Of a stretch of DNA of 64,000 bases, positions 3,772 through 48,437 are shown one piece after another. How positions within the stretch are numbered: position 1 is the first letter of the stretch; every line of letters starts with the position of its first letter. This stretch comes from Thermobaculum terrenum ATCC BAA-798. Its GTDB lineage: Bacteria > Chloroflexota > Chloroflexia > Thermobaculales > Thermobaculaceae. A program made the position numbers and the translations under genes. The notes under the pieces were generated by a model that saw nothing but the letters and a program-made list of their open reading frames with translations, ran no database searches and was not told the DNA's origin. The stretch spans positions 1,824,501 through 1,888,500 of the forward strand of contig NC_013525.1 in the NCBI RefSeq assembly GCF_000025005.1. Reading direction: 5' to 3'.

Positions 3772-6040
3772 GGGGATGGACTGTGCTAGCTGTGCAAGGG
3801 TTGTAGAGAGCGCAGTTCGATCCGTTGAGGGAGTTAGTGACTGCAACGTAAACTTTAGCACATCAAGTGTACAGGTTACTCTGCAAGACGAATCACACAA
3901 AGAGGATACTGCTGGCAAGTTAGTCAAGGCTATTCGATCAGCAGGTTACGGTGCAGAACCTGTAGGCCAAAACAATGTTGATACCGAATCGACCCCGGTA
4001 AGAAATAATGATTGGATTTCGCAGGTACTGCATATACAGCAGCTAAGAGCAGCTATCACCGCAGGATTCTTCTATCTACTAGGCGTTATCTTCGGTTTCC
4101 TCAACAGTAAAGGGATAATCCCCCAGTTCCCAGAGATACCATCAATACTAGCCGTATTTGGCCTTAGCTTAGAAAAAGTAAACCTGATTCAGCTGATATT
4201 TTACGGACTGGCCATAGTTTTTGGAGGATACAATATTGCTCGCTCCGGCGTAATAGCACTCCTAAGGACAAGGACCGCTAGTATAGACCTTCTGATGACG
4301 ATAGCCGTATTAGGAGCTGTAATAATCAATCAATGGGCTGAGGCTGCTACCGTAGTGATGCTATTCTCTCTTGGCGAGGGAATGGAATCGCTAACTATCA
4401 ATCGAGCTCGCAACGCAATACAGGAACTCCTCCAGATAGCCCCACAAGTAGCAAGAATCAGAAGGGGTAGCGAAACCATACAGCTGCCTGTAGAGGAAGT
4501 AGAGCTGCAGGATGTGATGCTCGTACGTCCCGGTGAGAGGATAGCCATGGACGGACGCGTAATTTCTGGCTATTCCACCGTTAATCAAGCCCCTATAACT
4601 GGCGAGAGTCTACCTGTGGAGAAATCACCTGGAGATGAAGTCTATGCTGGCACTCTGAACCAAAGAGGTTACCTGGAAGTAGAAGTAACAAAGCTAGCGG
4701 AGGATAGTACTCTTGCTCGAATTACAAGGCTGATAGAAACAGCTGGAGCCAATCGCGCCAAGACCGAGCGTTTTATGGAGCGTTTCGCCAAATACTACAC
4801 TCCAGCTGTAATAGCATTGGCCATACTATTGGCAGTGATACCACCATTAATGGGAGAGCCTTTTATACCCTGGTTCTATAGGGCGCTAACATTGCTAGTC
4901 ATAAGTTGTCCATGTGCTCTAGTAATATCCACTCCGGTAGCTATAGTTGCTGCGCTAGCTAATGCATCTCGGCATGGGATGCTGATAAAGGGTGGTGGTT
5001 ATATAGAGCTAGCTGGACAAATTGGTGCTATAGCCTTCGATAAAACTGGCACCCTGACCCATGGAAGACCTGAGGTAGTGGAGGTGTATGCTACCGATGG
5101 CTATGAGCCTGAAGAGGTTATATCCCTTGCAGCTACTATCGAAGAGAGATCTGAGCATCCCCTGGCAGCAGCTATATTAAGAAGGAGAGAGCTAGAGGTA
5201 ACTGCCAGTCCTCAGCATGTGCACGGGGATCAACATCAACATCTCTATCCTCACGACGAGAGTGAATTTGAGCTTATAGCAAAGGAAATATCGGACTTTG
5301 AAGCTATCACGGGGCGAGGAGCAAGGGCTACTATCGATGGTACCACTTACTACATAGGAACACCTAGATTGTTTGAAGAACTAGGAGTAGATATAAGCAA
5401 ACTGTCACACGTGATAAAGAAGTGGCAGGAGAATGGTAGAACAGTATTGATAGTGGGATCCGATAGAGAAGTTTTTGGGGCTATAGCGGTCGAAGATGAA
5501 CCTAGACCTGAGTCACGGGAAGTAATACAGAAACTGAAGGAAAACGGAATACAACACATAGTCATGCTCACCGGCGATAACTCTACTACAGCCCGATCGC
5601 TTGCTCAACGACTGGGTATAGATGAATATCGAGCAGAGCTTTTACCAGAGGACAAAGTTCAAGCCATTCGGGAGCTCAAAGACGAATATGGAAAGGTGGC
5701 AATGGTAGGCGACGGTATAAACGATGCTCCGGCAATGGCTGCAGCAGATTTAGGTATCGCCATGGGAGCAGCTGGTAGCGACACAGCTATCGAGACCTCT
5801 GATATAGCATTAATGTCGAGTGATCTGACCAAGCTACCTTTCGCAATTAAGCTGTCTAGAAGCACCTTGACCACTATCAAATCGAACATAGCTTTCTCCT
5901 TGTTCATCAAGGCAGCGATAATATTGCTGTCGGCTATAGGTATAACGAGTCTGTGGCTTGCCATATTGGCGGATACAGGGGCATCGATCATCGTTACGGC
6001 GAACGCTATGAGAATACTAAGACATAAACCCGCTGAATAG
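3737..6040 (+). CDS. Zn/Cd-type P1B ATPase (ZntA/CadA-like exporter)
   Basis: 767 residues from ATG 3737, which has GAGGAAG just upstream; a TTG at 3707 is less likely. Domain order: an N-terminal HMA with GMDCASC, membrane helices, actuator TGES, CPC in SCPCALVIS, phosphorylation DKTGT, the SEHPLA nucleotide-binding motif, and GDGINDAP. The last helix reads ADTGASIIVTANAMRILR, the DxG type of P1B-2 pumps for Zn, Cd and Pb, which agrees with the SmtB-like alpha5 site of the regulator. A His/Asp-rich insert (HVHGDQHQHLYPHD) sits in the nucleotide-binding domain and could bind metal. The enzyme would export the ion across the cytoplasmic membrane. The 3' end overlaps the convergent DUF554 gene by 24 bases. 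Confidence 0.95.
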   Translation: MNQAEKIVIKVEGMDCASCARVVESAVRSVEGVSDCNVNFSTSSVQVTLQDESHKEDTAGKLVKAIRSAGYGAEPVGQNNVDTESTPVRNNDWISQVLHIQQLRAAITAGFFYLLGVIFGFLNSKGIIPQFPEIPSILAVFGLSLEKVNLIQLIFYGLAIVFGGYNIARSGVIALLRTRTASIDLLMTIAVLGAVIINQWAEAATVVMLFSLGEGMESLTINRARNAIQELLQIAPQVARIRRGSETIQLPVEEVELQDVMLVRPGERIAMDGRVISGYSTVNQAPITGESLPVEKSPGDEVYAGTLNQRGYLEVEVTKLAEDSTLARITRLIETAGANRAKTERFMERFAKYYTPAVIALAILLAVIPPLMGEPFIPWFYRALTLLVISCPCALVISTPVAIVAALANASRHGMLIKGGGYIELAGQIGAIAFDKTGTLTHGRPEVVEVYATDGYEPEEVISLAATIEERSEHPLAAAILRRRELEVTASPQHVHGDQHQHLYPHDESEFELIAKEISDFEAITGRGARATIDGTTYYIGTPRLFEELGVDISKLSHVIKKWQENGRTVLIVGSDREVFGAIAVEDEPRPESREVIQKLKENGIQHIVMLTGDNSTTARSLAQRLGIDEYRAELLPEDKVQAIRELKDEYGKVAMVGDGINDAPAMAAADLGIAMGAAGSDTAIETSDIALMSSDLTKLPFAIKLSRSTLTTIKSNIAFSLFIKAAIILLSAIGITSLWLAILADTGASIIVTANAMRILRHKPAE

Positions 6041-6748
6041 ATTTCTAAATACAGGTTCTAGATTTCTAACTGCTGTAACTAATAATGGTGAGACTATCAG
6101 AGCAGGTAAGAAATTAGCCACAGGTATACGTTTTACATCTAGTAACCTGATGCCTATACCTATGATCAGTATTCCACCAACCGCGGTGAGTTCGCTGATT
6201 ATTTGTGCATCGTTTAGTATCCCCGAGAAGAGTCCTGCCCCGAGGGATAATCCTCCCTGAAAAATCAAAATTGTGAGTATCGAGAGAAATACTCCCCACC
6301 CCAAGGATGCGGCGAAGGCGAAAGAGCTAAATAGGTCCAGGAAAGACTTCAATGCAAGTAACCTATAATCACCCGTTAGCCCATTCTGCAGACTGCCCGT
6401 GATGGTCATTGGCCCAACACAGAATACAAGGCTCGAAGCCACAAAAGCTTCGCTAAAACGACCATCGTTACCCCTAGTGAGTTTGTGCTGAGCCCAGCTG
6501 CCAAACCTATCGAGGTTGCTCTCTATCTTCAGCAACTCACCTATTATTCCACCGATCAGGACAGCCCCAAGCAGGAGCAAAACATTCCTTGTCTCCAAAC
6601 CCATCTGGACACCAACAAGGAGGGTGAGCAATCCTAGCCCATCAAAAATAATCTTGTGGATTCTATCCGGCATCTTCTGGCCAACTATTAGCCCCAGAGT
6701 AGAACCCACAGAGACTGTTACTACATTGAGTAGGGTTCCTGATAGCAT
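6017..6748 (-). CDS. DUF554 (YqgA-like) membrane protein
   Basis: 243 residues with seven or so hydrophobic segments. Family marks are the start MLSGTLLNVVTVSVGSTLGL, the LGAVLIGGIIGE turn with LLKIE, FVASSLVFCVGPMTITGSLQNGL and the GGILIIGIGIRLL block near the C-terminus. The function of DUF554 is unknown. The ATG at 6748 has no nearby Shine-Dalgarno sequence, whereas a good GGAGGTG lies about 22 bases upstream with no ATG, GTG or TTG at the right distance, so the start is uncertain. It is convergent with the zinc ATPase. Confidence 0.88.
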   Translation of the reverse strand: MLSGTLLNVVTVSVGSTLGLIVGQKMPDRIHKIIFDGLGLLTLLVGVQMGLETRNVLLLLGAVLIGGIIGELLKIESNLDRFGSWAQHKLTRGNDGRFSEAFVASSLVFCVGPMTITGSLQNGLTGDYRLLALKSFLDLFSSFAFAASLGWGVFLSILTILIFQGGLSLGAGLFSGILNDAQIISELTAVGGILIIGIGIRLLDVKRIPVANFLPALIVSPLLVTAVRNLEPVFRNLFSGFMS

Positions 6749-6810
6749 CTGGAAGGCGTTTATATTTACACCTCCAACATGTAGCGATCGCCTAGATCGT
6801 CAATAAATAA

Positions 6811-7461
6811 CTATTGCATATCTATCTTGTTGTAGAAAGTTGTAAGCGCCTTCTCCAGCCTTTGCTGCCTGAGAGCGATGGTAAGATCACCCCTGGTTCT
6901 TTCCAATATACCTCTAACGTTATCGGTAGTGCGGCGCAGACCACCGGTGAGGGCATCTGGATAATCTACGGTCACTAGCAAGTTATAGATCTCGTCCATG
7001 ATCTCCAGAAAGCGCTCGGCTTGCTCAACATCCTGATGCCGAATGATATCTAATACTTTTCTGCGGAGCTCGCCTACCGCCTCTCCAAGAGCATTCAGAT
7101 AGGGCGACACATCCACCCCTATCTCATCCATATGCGGCACAGCATTGTGGCGTATCAGTGACAGGGTGATTCTAGCTTCCGCATACTCCTTCAGAGCATC
7201 TTGTACATAACCGGCCCAATATATATCTGGATGATCATGCAATTGCTGTTTGAGATCAGCTATCTGCTCTGCAACAGCATCAAGATCCTTTTGAGCTTCA
7301 TCAAATTCGTCTCTGTGGGTGGCACGAATGGCGTTTGCAGAAGCTCTAATTATAGCTCTGGATACGGTCAATGCTATCTCACGCACGTTGTGCTTGGCTT
7401 CAAGCTTGGAAAGCGCATCAGAACCTATTTTATCTAGGCCTATCTCAGTTGCTATCGACAT
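6811..7461 (-). CDS. Translin-family protein
   Basis: 216 residues, all helical in appearance, starting at ATG 7461 behind AAGGAGGA. The C-terminal block DYPDALTGGLRRTTDNVRG followed by ILERTRGDLT is typical of the translin family as found in archaea and some bacteria (COG2178, predicted nucleic-acid binding). The N-terminal half includes REIALTVSRAIIRASANAIRATHR, matching the helix with basic residues. Eukaryotic translin binds RNA and ssDNA and, with TRAX, acts as an RNase; which acidic residues are catalytic here is not clear, so activity is not assigned. It lies 24 bp downstream of a Trm112-like zinc ribbon on the same strand, probably cotranscribed. Confidence 0.8.
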   Translation of the reverse strand: MSIATEIGLDKIGSDALSKLEAKHNVREIALTVSRAIIRASANAIRATHRDEFDEAQKDLDAVAEQIADLKQQLHDHPDIYWAGYVQDALKEYAEARITLSLIRHNAVPHMDEIGVDVSPYLNALGEAVGELRRKVLDIIRHQDVEQAERFLEIMDEIYNLLVTVDYPDALTGGLRRTTDNVRGILERTRGDLTIALRQQRLEKALTTFYNKIDMQ

Positions 7462-7485
7462 TCATCCTCCTTATGGGACTGTCTT

Positions 7486-7719
7486 TTACTTATCAAGTCT
7501 GAAGGTTATCAACTCCCCTACTATATCCATAAGCCCCCTCTTATTTATATCCTCTGGGGGATACTGCAAGATCAAGACCCCCTCAACCTGCAAGTATGAC
7601 TGCCCGCAGCTTGTACAGAGCACGTGGCTATCAGCCAACTCAAGAGGTCCTCGACAACGCGGGCAGCAGATCATATCGGGAAGCCCTGCATCAGATCTTC
7701 GATCACCCACAGAATGCAC
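7486..7719 (-). CDS. Trm112-like zinc-ribbon protein
   Basis: 77 residues from GTG 7719, or about 62 from the internal ATG at 7674; both have weak ribosome sites. The domain is CCPRCRGPLEL...CTSCGQSYLQVEGVLIL, with two CxxC pairs and the closing hydrophobic strand typical of Trm112/UPF0434 proteins. Such proteins activate methyltransferases or serve as small zinc scaffolds. A longer C-terminal tail (PEDINKRGLMDIVGELITF) follows. It is followed 24 bp on by the translin-family gene. Confidence 0.8.
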   Translation of the reverse strand: MHSVGDRRSDAGLPDMICCPRCRGPLELADSHVLCTSCGQSYLQVEGVLILQYPPEDINKRGLMDIVGELITFRLDK

Positions 7720-7781
7720 AATTGTTTATTCGCCTTATACAACGGATTTTTGACGGATTATAACATTACCAGAAGATAAAA

Positions 7782-7811
7782 GTGCTCCTCTGTAGAGTTG
7801 CAGAGGAGCAC
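7782..7811 (-). terminator. Intrinsic terminator of the suf operon
   Basis: Perfect 11-base arms GTGCTCCTCTG and CAGAGGAGCAC around an 8-base loop. On the minus strand the stem is followed by TTTTATCTTC. It lies 7 bases beyond the Rieske gene stop, so it ends the suf transcript. Confidence 0.88.
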
Positions 7812-7817
7812 GGGTAA

Positions 7818-8135
7818 TTAGTCGAGGTATATTTCTAGATCATCTCCATTTACGCGGATTTGATAGACAGGAACCGGTCTCACCGCCGGTAAACTTCTTG
7901 GACGGCCAGTTCTTATGTCAAACTGAGAGCCGTGGAGAGGACACTCAACTAAGTATTCATCTGGATAAAATTCACCTTCAGATAAACGAGCATACTCATG
8001 CGAGCATATGTCGGAGATGGCATAATATTCGCCATCTACCTCATATATGCCTATCTCCTTTCCTTGCAGCTCTACATGCTTGACCTCGCCTGGCCTTATA
8101 TCCTTAGTTTTAGCAACAGCATACCACTGCCCCAT
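7818..8135 (-). CDS. Rieske-type [2Fe-2S] ferredoxin
   Basis: 105 residues. The cluster motifs are CSH in ISDICSHEYARLSEG and CPLHGSQF, giving the two-Cys/two-His ligation of a Rieske cluster. The overall form (WYAVAKTKDI...VKHVELQGKEIGIYEVDGEYYAI...VPVYQIRVNGDDLEIYL) matches the soluble small ferredoxin subunits of dioxygenase systems and SUF-linked Rieske proteins. No dioxygenase genes are nearby. As last gene of the suf operon it is probably an electron carrier or an accessory to cluster assembly; that role is inferred from position. Confidence 0.9.
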   Translation of the reverse strand: MGQWYAVAKTKDIRPGEVKHVELQGKEIGIYEVDGEYYAISDICSHEYARLSEGEFYPDEYLVECPLHGSQFDIRTGRPRSLPAVRPVPVYQIRVNGDDLEIYLD

Positions 8136-43311: not shown

Positions 43312-45782
43312 TCCTTAGGACGCCATCCCCTTAATCTCAGGGAGTTACTTACCACGCTTACCGAGCTCAACCCCATAGCTGCTGCAGCTATCATGGGGTT
43401 GAGCAACCCATTCCATCCACCAGAGCCCGCAAAGAATGGATAGAGCACTCCCGCTGCCAAAGGAATGAGCACAACATTATAGATAAACGCCCAGAAGAGG
43501 TTTTGCTTTATAACCCTCACAGTCGCGCGGGAAAGCTCCAACGCATCTACTATCAGCTTAAGGTTAGGGGACATCAGAGTTATGTCAGCCGATTCCATTG
43601 CTATGTCCGTGCCACTGCTCATAGATATCCCTACATCAGCTAACGTCAAAGCTGGGGCATCGTTGATGCCATCCCCAACCATCGCAACCTTCTTACCTTT
43701 GTCTCTTAGGGACTTTATCACTTCGGCTTTCTGATCAGGCTTCACCTCGGAAATAACCTGATCCACTCCCAACCTACGCGCTATTGCCTCGGCTACTAGC
43801 CTGTTATCACCAGTAAGGATCACGACTTCCCTTCCGATATCCTTCAGGCTCTTAACAAGGGAGAAACTCTCAGCTCGTAGTTCATCCTCCACAGCTACAA
43901 CTCCCACCAGTTGACCATCAACAGCAACCATTATGGGAGTAGCACCCCTTGCAGCCACATCCTCCACCACTGTGCTGTAGGAGTCTACAGTTCTATCTCC
44001 TAGCATCTCGGCCATCATGCGGGGGTTACCTGCGAGCACCTGTTTACCATCAATCTCGGCTCTTACTCCACCACCAACTATGGCCTCGAATTTGTCTGGC
44101 TTAGTTATGTTAATATTGTTGCTCTGAGCATGCTCTACAATCGCACGCCCCAGCGGGTGTTCGCTCAGTGCCTCTGCGGAGGCAACCACCTGCAGCAGCG
44201 AGGCTGCATCAAAGCCGTTCACCGGTATTACATCGGCCACCACAGGCTTACCCTTCGTCAGCGTGCCAGTCTTATCCAGCACGAAGGTATCGACCCTTGA
44301 GAGCGCCTCCAGAGCAACAGCATCCCTAACTAAGATGCCCATCTGAGCTGCCCTACCGGTTGCAACTATAATCGCAGTAGGAGTAGCTAGTCCAAGAGCG
44401 CATGGACAGGCTATGATGAGGACAGCTATGAAGTTGAGCAGAGCCATGGTAAGCCTGGGTTCAGGACCAAACACCAGCCAGATAACGAATGTTACTAGGG
44501 CTATACCTATCACAGCAGGCACAAAGTATCCCGCTATAACATCTGCCAGCCTCTGTATGGGAGGCTTTGACCCTTGGGCTTGCTCGACCAGTCTTACTAT
44601 CTGGGCAAGTAGAGTCTCACTCCCCACACGAGTAGCCCTGAAAGCAAATGAACCGCTTTGGTTTATGGTTCCGGCAAACACCTGAGAGCCAACAGCTTTG
44701 TCGACTGGGATTGACTCTCCGGTTATCATCGACTCGTCAACCACGGATCTGCCACCAGTGACGATTCCATCTACCGGGATCCTTTCACCAGGTCGTACTA
44801 TTACTACATCCCCCGGCACCAGCTCGCTTACAGGTACCTCAACCTCCTGCCCTTCCCTCATGACCCTGGCAACCGGAGGCTGAAGATCCAGTAGCTTCCT
44901 GATCGCATCCGAAGCTTTACCCCTGGCTCTCGACTCCAGAGCCCTGCCAAGAAGCACCAAACCTATGATTATCAAGCCCGTATCGTAGTACACGTGGGGA
45001 GTCTCGCCCATCATGGCAAAGACTCCTGGGAACAGTGTGACTAGTGCGCTATAGATAAAAGCCGCGGCAGTACCAACAGCGATAAGGGTGTTCATATTCG
45101 CACTTCTGTGAAGCGCCGATCGCCATGCCGCTTTGTAGAAGGTCCAACCTGTCCAAGCTTGTACTGGTAGCGTTATCAGCAGGCCGATCCAGTTGATCGC
45201 TTTGGGATCGATGGCCTGAAGCACGGAGAAGTAGTCTCTCATTGAGAGGAACATCAGAAACAGGCCAGACACAAGGCTAACAACAGCCTTCGTGATCGTA
45301 TTTTTGTACTCCCGTTGGTGGTCAGTCTGAACGACTTGCGTTTGGGTCGCGTCTGCGAGCCTGGCCTCATAGCCTGCATCCTCCACAGCCCTGATCATCT
45401 CCTGCGGGCCTATTGCCCCAGGCACATACCTCACCAAAGCCTTGGATGTAGCAAAGTTCACATCTGCAGACAGCACCCCAGTGAGGTTAGCAAGGGACTT
45501 CTCCACAGCCCTGACGCAGGAGGCACAAGTCATGCCCTCGATCTGCAGCTCAACAGTGGCTTCCGGTACCTCATAACCTGCGTCTCTGACGGCTTCGGCT
45601 ATCTGCAATGCAGATACTGGTGCTCCCAGCCTTATAAAGGCTTTACTGGTTGCCAGGTTGACATCTACGGCCTCTACACCAGGCAACTTACTTATCGCTT
45701 GTTCTACATGGCGCACACAAGAGGCGCAGGTCATACCTTCAACTGGTATAGTTAGGCTCTTTTCCTCAGAAGTAGTGGCCAT
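43263..45782 (-). CDS. copA: Copper-exporting P1B-type ATPase CopA
   Basis: About 839 residues from ATG 45782 (AGGAGG 10 bases upstream); the longer frame to 45947 overlaps the CGNR gene and lacks support. Two N-terminal HMA domains each carry GMTCASC. Then TGES in [14 protein letters not shown] in [30 protein letters not shown] and [10 protein letters not shown]. The final helices with [11 protein letters not shown] and [16 protein letters not shown] are the Cu(I) P1B-1 signature. It exports Cu(I). It starts 4 bases after the stop of the CGNR gene, so the two are cotranscribed. Confidence 0.96.
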
Positions 45783-45786
45783 GAAT

Positions 45787-46344
45787 TCATTTCCTCCTTC
45801 CACATGTACATACATCACCACATGTGCATACAGCGCCATGCTTCCTTCGCCATCTGCCAACCTTGGCCCTGTTGCCACAGATTTCCATCGAGCACCACAC
45901 TCTCTTGCCGTTGCGTGAGGCATCATAGAAGATGCAGTCGCATCCAAGGCACTTGCGTACTCTGTGCCAGATCCCCGAAGCTATCATGTCAGCCACGAGC
46001 AGATAGAGTTGGATAATGGGGCTTCCGTTACTGCTTATAGCCAAGCGCCCATCAATGATCTCCAATGTAGCTTGATGGCTCCGTAGATACTCGTTGATCT
46101 CTTGCAGCAGGTCGCCAGTTTCAAGCTCTCCACTCAGGTTAGCCCTTAGCAGCCTCCCGATATCGCCAGCCTCGACAAGATCCTGCCGAGTGCCGATAAA
46201 GCCAGTGGCCCTCTCAAGCTCATCAGCAGAAGGATCCTGTCCATGCCGTACAGAAGGAGTATTCAAGAGATCCACCAAGCTCTGGGGATCTAGAGTGCTG
46301 ATCGTTATTGCGTAGCCGGAATTTACACTTTCTATTATTTTCAT
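45787..46344 (-). CDS. CGNR zinc-finger (ABATE) protein with a tandem CTCG tail; candidate copper regulator
   Basis: 185 residues. The C-terminal CGNR finger reads [38 protein letters not shown], with two Cys pairs and a basic helix; the N-terminal domain (about 15-125) is the helical ABATE stress-sensor type. CGNR proteins are predicted DNA-binding regulators. Unusual here is the end [14 protein letters not shown], two copies of V-C-T-C-G made by a tandem repeat, which supplies four more thiols. Translation appears leaderless (promoter at 46351-46379). It lies 4 bases from copA, so I infer a Cu-responsive regulator of that operon; direct evidence is lacking. Confidence 0.85.
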
Positions 46345-46350
46345 GTAACT

Positions 46351-46379
46351 ATCATAATATTATTTAGTGGTTACATCAA
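46351..46379 (-). promoter_or_regulatory. Promoter of the CGNR-copA operon
   Basis: Minus strand TTGATG (46379-46374), a 17-base spacer, then TATGAT (46356-46351). The A of the ATG (46344) is 7 bases past the -10, implying a leaderless transcript. Arms TGTAAC (46344-46349) and GTTACA (46370-46375) bracket the -10 and reach the -35, a possible operator. Confidence 0.7.
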
Positions 46380-46472: not shown

Positions 46473-47285
46473 ATGATCCGTATCAACATCGACCCTATAA
46501 TGTTTCAGCTAGGCCCATTGGCATTTAGCTGGCATGGTTTGTTTACCGCAATCGCGGTGGTAGTGGCGGTTTGGCTAGGGCTAAGCCTTGCACAAAGATA
46601 TAACGTCGACCAGGAGAAGCTCAGCAACCTGATCATATGGATCATAGTAGGCGGAGTTGTTGGCGCTCGCCTGATGCACGTGCTAGACCATTTATCTTAT
46701 TACAGTCAGAACCCTGTCGAGATAATCGCTGTTTGGAAAGGTGGTATTGCCGTCTATGGTTCTTTCATTGGGGGCATAGTAGCAGGACTTATAGCAGCCA
46801 GGTTATATCGACTGCCCGTATGGCCTTTGTTGGATGCTGCGGCTCCTGCAATGCTCGTTGGTCAGATGATAGGTCGTATCGGTTGCCTAATTAACGGCGA
46901 TGCATGGGGAGAGCCCACTAACGCAGGGTGGGGACTCGTATATGTTAACCCTGGGGCGCAGCTCCCTTCCTCCCTTATCGGTGTGCCAACACATCCTTAT
47001 CCTGTCTATGAGATAGTGGCTTGTGGCCTCCTGCTTGTCATAGTGTTCTACCTATGGCGCAGGGTACAGGTCCCTGGTGTGACTTTCCTAGTGGCTGCGA
47101 TAGGCTATGGCGTAATCAGGTTCGGGCTGACTTACTTCCGGCAGGAAACGATCGTTGCCTTTGGGCTTCAGGAAGCGCAAGTCATCGCGCTCATTACGAT
47201 CGTGCTTTCTCTCATACTTCTGGTGGTTAGGTTAGGGATCAACAGATCAAGCTATACACTCACTACTTCAGAACAGAGCAGATAA
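46473..47285 (+). CDS. lgt: Prolipoprotein diacylglyceryl transferase
   Basis: 270 residues with seven membrane helices. Transfers diacylglycerol from phosphatidylglycerol to the lipobox cysteine of prolipoproteins. The signature GRIGCLINGDAWGEPT, the early HGLF segment (SWHGLFTAIA), VVGARLMHVLDH and KGGIAVYGSFIGG are present; HPYPVYEI also fits. It would modify the PrsA-like lipoprotein at 31170-32312. It starts an operon with DsbA-like and VKOR genes (gaps of 9 bases each). Confidence 0.96.
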   Translation: MIRINIDPIMFQLGPLAFSWHGLFTAIAVVVAVWLGLSLAQRYNVDQEKLSNLIIWIIVGGVVGARLMHVLDHLSYYSQNPVEIIAVWKGGIAVYGSFIGGIVAGLIAARLYRLPVWPLLDAAAPAMLVGQMIGRIGCLINGDAWGEPTNAGWGLVYVNPGAQLPSSLIGVPTHPYPVYEIVACGLLLVIVFYLWRRVQVPGVTFLVAAIGYGVIRFGLTYFRQETIVAFGLQEAQVIALITIVLSLILLVVRLGINRSSYTLTTSEQSR

Positions 47286-47294
47286 GAGGAGAAG

Positions 47295-47990
47295 ATGAGT
47301 CAGAGCAGAAGAGCAACTCAAACCAACAGGGCAGCCCTGGTACTATCACTAGTCGTTGTAGTGATAGCCGTTGTCATAGTGGCGCTACTAATAGTTCTCA
47401 ACAGGCCAGCATCTACGACACCTGAGTCGGCCTCAAATAGAAATCAGGTAGCCGTACCCACAGGTGTCCCGGCCGAAGGCAACGTGATGGGTGATCCCAA
47501 CGCCCCGGTCACAGTGGAAGTCTGGGCCGACTACCAATGTCCGTATTGCCGCGAGTTCGTCATGGGGCCCGAGGCACAGCTCAAAAAGACCCTGATTCCT
47601 GAGGGTAAGGTAAAGCTGGTGTACAGAAACTTCGCCTTTATAGGGCAGGAATCCGTAGATGCTGCGGCCGCAGCCTATTGCGCCCAGGATCAAGGTAGGT
47701 TCTGGGATTACAACTACAAGCTGTTCTCTGAGCAGGGAGCGGAGAATTCCGGAACCTTTAGCAAAGCTAACCTGATAAGGTTTGCCAGTGACCTGGGATT
47801 GAACGTTGCCCAGTTCAGGTCCTGCCTGGATAGTGGGAAGTACCTGTCCAAGGTGCAGGCCGACACCCAGGATGGACGGGCTAAGGGTGTTCGAGCTACA
47901 CCAACGATCTTTGTGAACGGCGAGAAGATAGAGGGGCTACCTAGCTACGAGCAGCTGGTGCAGGTCATCAATTCGGTGCAGAGCAAGTAG
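47295..47990 (+). CDS. Membrane-anchored DsbA-family thiol oxidoreductase
   Basis: 231 residues: an N-terminal anchor helix (about 13-36), a short linker, then a DSBA/thioredoxin-4 domain. Redox motif C-P-Y-C in WADYQCPYCREFV; cis-proline in RATPTIFVNG. It introduces or shuffles disulfides outside the membrane and is reoxidised by the VKOR-type protein that follows, 9 bases downstream. A second Cys pair (AYCAQDQ and SCLDSGK) could form a structural disulfide. Confidence 0.93.
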   Translation: MSQSRRATQTNRAALVLSLVVVVIAVVIVALLIVLNRPASTTPESASNRNQVAVPTGVPAEGNVMGDPNAPVTVEVWADYQCPYCREFVMGPEAQLKKTLIPEGKVKLVYRNFAFIGQESVDAAAAAYCAQDQGRFWDYNYKLFSEQGAENSGTFSKANLIRFASDLGLNVAQFRSCLDSGKYLSKVQADTQDGRAKGVRATPTIFVNGEKIEGLPSYEQLVQVINSVQSK

Positions 47991-47999
47991 GGTAGGACT

Positions 48000-48437
48000 A
48001 TGTGGCGCAACATAGTTATGTTGGCCCTGTCGATAGCGGGCACAGCCGTGGCAGCTTACCTCACTTGGGTCCATTATAGTGGTAACCTTGCGCTATGCCT
48101 GGGAACAGGGGGATGCGAGAAAGTGCAGACAAGTGCCTACTCGGTAGTTATGGGCGTGCCGGTGGCGCTGTTGGGGCTTCTGATGTACCTGGCCCTGGAC
48201 GTACTATTGGTGTGGTTGTTCTTGACTAAGGATAATGTTCTGCCAGCAGTTGCCATATTTGGTATCTCGCTGGCAGGTACGCTTTATTCTGCATATTTGA
48301 CCTATCTGGAGCTTTACGTGATTCATGCTATATGCCCCTGGTGTGTCACGTCTGCGGTCATAATAACGCTGCTATTCCTGCTCTCGATAGCCGAGATGTC
48401 CAGGTTTTACAGAGGCGAGGCGGTCACCGAAAGCTAG
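48000..48437 (+). CDS. VKOR-family quinone-linked disulfide generator
   Basis: 145 residues with four to five helices. A loop cysteine pair is formed by C in LALCLG and GCEKVQTSAYSVVMGVP, and the active C-x-x-C is ICPWCV in the last helix. This is the bacterial VKOR layout without a fused thioredoxin domain. It passes electrons from DsbA to quinone. The DsbA partner is adjacent. Its 3' end overlaps the convergent VWA operon by 4 bases. Confidence 0.94.
   Translation: MWRNIVMLALSIAGTAVAAYLTWVHYSGNLALCLGTGGCEKVQTSAYSVVMGVPVALLGLLMYLALDVLLVWLFLTKDNVLPAVAIFGISLAGTLYSAYLTYLELYVIHAICPWCVTSAVIITLLFLLSIAEMSRFYRGEAVTES

Follow-up and report, generated by a model that had tools for sequence, protein, structure and literature searches.

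The window analyzed here is a 64,000-nucleotide stretch of chromosome 1 of Thermobaculum terrenum (C1:1824501-1888500). The genome of strain YNP1 consists of two chromosomes of 2,026,947 and 1,074,634 bases (PMC3035366). The minus strand of the window carries a gene for a CGNR zinc-finger protein followed by copA, which encodes a Cu(I) P-type ATPase scoring 620.6 bits on TIGR01511 (cut-off 397); the features of the locus are collected in Table 1. With the last base of the CGNR stop codon at 45787 and the first base of copA at 45782, 4 bases separate the two genes, as the original prediction had described. The likely ribosome-binding site of copA lies inside the end of the CGNR gene, and the two genes are probably translationally coupled. 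They form one operon, as was proposed, and they are two separate genes, so the earlier wording of a CGNR gene 'fused' to copA was loose. Beside the pair and divergent from it lies a disulfide-bond gene set (46473-48437) comprising lgt, a DsbA-like thioredoxin of the Rcas_1661-type family, and VKOR.

Table 1. Features of the CGNR-copA locus, with positions counted from the first base of the window.
Feature	Position	Strand	Basis
copA, Cu(I) P-type ATPase, two HMA domains, 839 aa	43263..45782	-	Pfam and profile matches; CPC motif
AGGAGG, likely copA ribosome-binding site, within the end of the CGNR gene	45793..45798	-	sequence; inference
CGNR zinc-finger protein, putative regulator, 185 aa; likely ABATE-like N-terminal domain, CGNR treble-clef finger and Cys tail	45787..46344	-	ORF; PF11706; model; 3h0n match
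Tail with CxCx3CxC thiolate motif, residues 172-182	45799..45831	-	sequence; CACGRVCHCG in orthologue; absent from other CGNR relatives
CGNR finger, residues 128-169; predicted zinc ligands C132, C137, C151, C156, plus extra C135	45838..45963	-	Pfam; ligands by analogy with 3h0n
Conserved inverted repeat TGTAAC-N20-GTTACA over the CGNR-copA promoter, candidate operator	46344..46375	.	sole match in genome; alignment
Sigma-70-like promoter TTGATG-17-TATGAT, 6 nt before ATG	46351..46379	-	promoter sequence comparison with orthologue

Membership of the CGNR family is clear from the sequence of this open reading frame. A Pfam scan placed the zf-CGNR profile on the finger well above its cut-off (E 1.5e-13; 50.7 bits against 24), and the CGNR motif and all four predicted ligand cysteines are present. 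In Jann_2411, whose structure founded the ABATE/CGNR family, zinc is held by a C-x4-C pair and by two cysteines with which the last helix begins; the protein is dimeric, its treble clef is likely to contact DNA, and members of its family have been proposed to be dimeric stress regulators (PMC2954205). An AlphaFold model of the T. terrenum protein (pLDDT 81.8, pTM 0.76; tail poorly defined at pLDDT 50-58) matched Jann_2411 (3h0n) with Z 10.3 over 153 residues spanning residues 1-168, the next row lying at Z 4.4. The Pfam scan returned zf-CGNR only and left the ABATE profile PF07336 unmatched, so the likeness to 3h0n is a fold match and not a profile match; given the Z score, the N-terminal domain of the modeled protein is nonetheless likely to be ABATE-like. 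The protein shares with the ABATE/CGNR proteins (PF07336/PF11706) the modeled fold and a treble clef with four zinc cysteines, and differs from them by its CxCx3CxC tail, a fifth cysteine in the finger and its linkage to copA. It is a CGNR family member with an added feature and, lacking their folds, not a member of the CopY or CsoR families. T. terrenum encodes another CGNR protein on chromosome 2 (G000:C2:42124-42588; L001), which has no cysteine tail.

The tail begins after the basic helix of the CGNR finger and consists, as originally described, of V-C-T-C-G repeated in tandem beyond the finger (residues 172-176, 45817-45831, and residues 178-182, 45799-45813), so that the paired CxCx3CxC motif occupies residues 173-181. 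It is encoded by two near-identical direct DNA copies 18 nt apart with ACATGT cores, which differ at synonymous sites only. Four added thiols had been counted, and all four are present in the tail; the count missed the fifth added cysteine, C135, which lies within the finger (CxGCDC). Among 113 distinct CGNR proteins, C135 is confined to the three that are linked to copA. The four-cysteine tail is likewise found in only these three, while 108 have no cysteine at all in a total of 1650 post-finger residues and the remaining two carry isolated cysteines in long extensions that are probably read-through. The expectation that the tail would follow copA linkage was borne out in every case found, with three of three linked proteins carrying it and none of the unlinked ones. 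No CopA-like neighbor was seen at the other CGNR loci within the stretches examined around each.

A single orthologue was found, with 44% protein identity, in MAG YX1bin4 (genome G452; L046), which belongs to the GTDB family of Thermobaculum. Its gene also directly precedes copA, and its product ends in CACGRVCHCG, which keeps the pattern CxCGxVCxCG at the same end of the protein. Since the orthologue uses different codons and its linker has six residues more, the tail appears from this comparison to be conserved as protein and not as an accident of a DNA repeat; the tandem DNA repeat, considered as the conserved unit, was rejected, as the orthologue retains the amino acids and not the repeat. 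Upstream of the orthologous pair (L046:3612-5760) lie genes for a TlpA-like thioredoxin, CcdA and an SCO1-like protein, a copper/cytochrome assembly neighborhood, with a BlaI-type gene further upstream. A near-identical CGNR-copA copy, with the CGNR gene again directly before copA, is present in bin YX3bin7 (L045/L047; G097). That bin is assigned to a different class, which probably reflects mis-binning or a very recent transfer. We took the two copies as one lineage because the 9.9-kb contig of G097 differs little from the G452 stretch. The three copA-linked proteins thus amount to a single orthologous lineage of two diverged members in one family, and this narrow known distribution is the main weakness of the case.

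Beyond the known members, no tail-bearing homologue was found in 158 genomes of the class or in 29 genomes of the class of G097, nor in viral contigs, nor among the plasmid matches listed, which were partly inspected. A scan of about 85,000 species genomes used two peptide patterns, with which diverged relatives could be missed. A codon-pattern scan of 400 Chloroflexota genomes returned the T. terrenum window only and is weak evidence, since the gap limit it allowed would have missed even the known orthologue.

The position immediately before copA is held by a different regulator in close relatives. In G449, a member of the same family, csoR (7677-7910) lies directly upstream of copA (5083-7620), both on the minus strand, and csoR is found just upstream of copA in G450 as well; it also adjoins other copA copies in G450 and G452. 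The slot that csoR occupies in the relatives' closest copA homologues is filled by the CGNR gene in T. terrenum and on contig 65 of G452, and this gene order suggests that the CGNR gene has replaced csoR before copA. The original prediction held that none of the usual regulators, CopY, CueR or CsoR, was to be seen, which is true of the locus and nearly true of the genome. The CopY/BlaI family (PF03965) has no match in the T. terrenum genome, and no protein reaches the CueR cut-off, the best MerR protein scoring 93.4 bits against 147.4 and adjoining another P-type ATPase. The sole CsoR match (PF02583) lies on chromosome 2 (G000:C2:752311-752496; L157), with a CopZ-like gene and a CPH-type ATPase next to it in divergent orientation. 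It has the Cys-His-Cys set, and its frame breaks close to where the conserved region begins, leaving no intact reading frame in the assembly. This gene may be decayed, or the break may be an assembly error; the finished genome is claimed to contain fewer than 1 error per 100,000 bases (PMC3035366), so the break may be real. The genome of the orthologue carries csoR and BlaI/CopY-family genes elsewhere.

A candidate operator was found in the CGNR-copA promoter. The orthologue has a promoter of the same form (TTGACT-17-TATACT), with the same 17-bp spacing and a -10 box that likewise ends 6 nt before the start codon, and owing to this short distance the CGNR-copA mRNA is probably leaderless. In both lineages the arms of the palindrome surround the -10 box, with a spacer of N20 in T. 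terrenum and N19 in the orthologue, and the flanking DNA is otherwise diverged in the alignment. With spacers of 17-22 allowed, each of the two genomes contains TGTAAC/GTTACA exactly once, at the CGNR promoter, and the pattern is absent from the five other genomes of the family; in shuffled promoters the palindrome appeared 3-4 times in 200,000. The csoR-copA promoter of G449 instead bears CATACCCCCTCCCGGGGGGTGTGG, a G-tract palindrome that we take to be of the CsoR-operator type. The cop box TACAnnTGTA is absent from the CGNR-copA promoter as read by eye. The distance between the half-site centers, 25-26 bp or roughly 2.5 helical turns, differs by one base between the lineages and would be awkward for a rigid dimer.

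Taken at the level of sequence, the CGNR protein is probably a copper-responsive, autoregulated repressor of the operon that it forms with copA. Dimerization would be through the ABATE-like domain, with the basic helix of the finger contacting the TGTAAC/GTTACA arms on either side of the -10 box and thereby blocking RNA polymerase. When cytosolic copper rises, the tail, which starts a few residues past the basic helix, would form a Cu(I)-thiolate cluster, with Cu(I) probably displacing Zn(II) as in CopY, and this cluster would loosen DNA binding so that CopA is made. In T. terrenum, the CGNR protein would have taken the position of CsoR before the pump gene. DNA binding by the protein, the identity of the metal, the allosteric step and a repressing rather than an activating role are our inferences; a repressor is favored over a MerR-type activator by the promoter spacing of 17 bp. 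The direction of control, the metal and the arm spacing are the uncertain points, and the motif could also suit Zn(II), Cd(II) or thiol oxidation. The reading of the protein as a copA-linked regulator with a Cu(I)-sensing tail is nevertheless supported by gene order, by conservation of the tail and its restriction to copA-linked members, by the csoR slot, and by a palindrome that is conserved and unique. Support for the tail and the operator consists of two diverged sequences from one family, those of Thermobaculum and the MAG.

The same tail could serve other functions. Many thiophilic metals are bound by CxC motifs, and thiol-redox genes neighbor the operon in both lineages (lgt, DsbA-like and VKOR in T. 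terrenum; SCO1, CcdA and TlpA-like in the orthologue), which would fit a sensor of thiol/disulfide state or of metals in general (Zn, Cd) and not of copper. We consider this unlikely, as the thiol genes differ between the loci, SCO1 is itself a copper protein, and the one constant neighbor, in the same operon, is a Cu(I) pump. It is quite unlikely that the protein, instead of being the copper-responsive switch itself, uses its tail as a Cu(I) chaperone or buffer to pass copper on to the HMA domains of CopA. Such a role would be in keeping with Cu(I) binding by CxC motifs, with the probable translational coupling and with the fact that no separate copZ was seen beside the CGNR-linked copA. However, CopA already has two HMA domains, the motif sits on a scaffold of DNA-binding type, and the conserved palindrome and the replacement of csoR point to regulation.

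Control of copA in trans by the chromosome 2 CsoR or a MerR protein, with the CGNR protein as a passenger bearing a structural zinc tail, draws on the CsoR-family sequence with its Cys-His-Cys set next to a CopZ-like gene and a CPH-type ATPase. It is very unlikely, given that this csoR has no intact frame in the assembly, that the MerR candidate falls below the cut-off and adjoins another ATPase, and that the copA promoter bears its own conserved palindrome and not a G-tract. That the cysteines are a by-product of a cis element before copA, as the near-identity of the two copies and their ACATGT cores, 18 nt apart, might imply, is extremely improbable: the copies differ at synonymous sites only, and preservation of the amino acids and not the DNA repeat in the orthologue largely refutes it.

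The reading of the CGNR protein as a copper-responsive repressor invites comparison with known copper regulators. In CopY, a DNA-binding domain is followed by C-terminal CxC motifs, which hold Zn(II) while the protein represses and Cu(I) once it is released (PMC5772342). CopY/CopR proteins of the BlaI/MecI fold thus share with the CGNR protein the order of DNA-binding domain and C-terminal paired CxC and a copper-pump operon that includes its regulator, but the likeness is one of function only: their fold, a winged helix, is unrelated, the Pfam scan detected no BlaI-type winged-helix domain in the T. terrenum protein, and their operator is TACAnnTGTA where the candidate here is TGTAAC-N20-GTTACA. 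The motif spacing also differs, being CxCx4CxC in CopY and CxCx3CxC in the CGNR tail. CsoR (DUF156, PF02583) stands at the corresponding position in front of copA in close relatives, but is an all-helical tetramer with a Cys-His-Cys site, is not homologous and uses a different type of operator. We lean, with some reserve, towards regarding the T. terrenum protein as the first representative of a new copper-sensor family, in which a CGNR/ABATE regulator became a Cu(I) repressor through a CxCx3CxC tail and displaced CsoR together with its operator.

Our literature search found no CGNR protein shown to bind DNA, or to bind a metal as a sensor, and no member with a known effector, proven ligand or operator; nor did it find a report joining the family and copper, the matches appearing by title to use the letters otherwise. 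ABATE/CGNR proteins are common in bacteria, and this locus offers a candidate effector, copper acting through the tail, along with a candidate operator. If the proposal is true, this protein would become the first of the CGNR family to have both an effector and an operator defined. It would show that a new metal sensor can arise through a short cysteine tail on an unrelated DNA-binding scaffold, in parallel to CopY, and that regulator and operator can be swapped before an unchanged pump gene. Deinococcus aetherius (L171:3794-4888) offers a further case of a CGNR gene linked to a possible target; there, a redoxin gene directly follows it.
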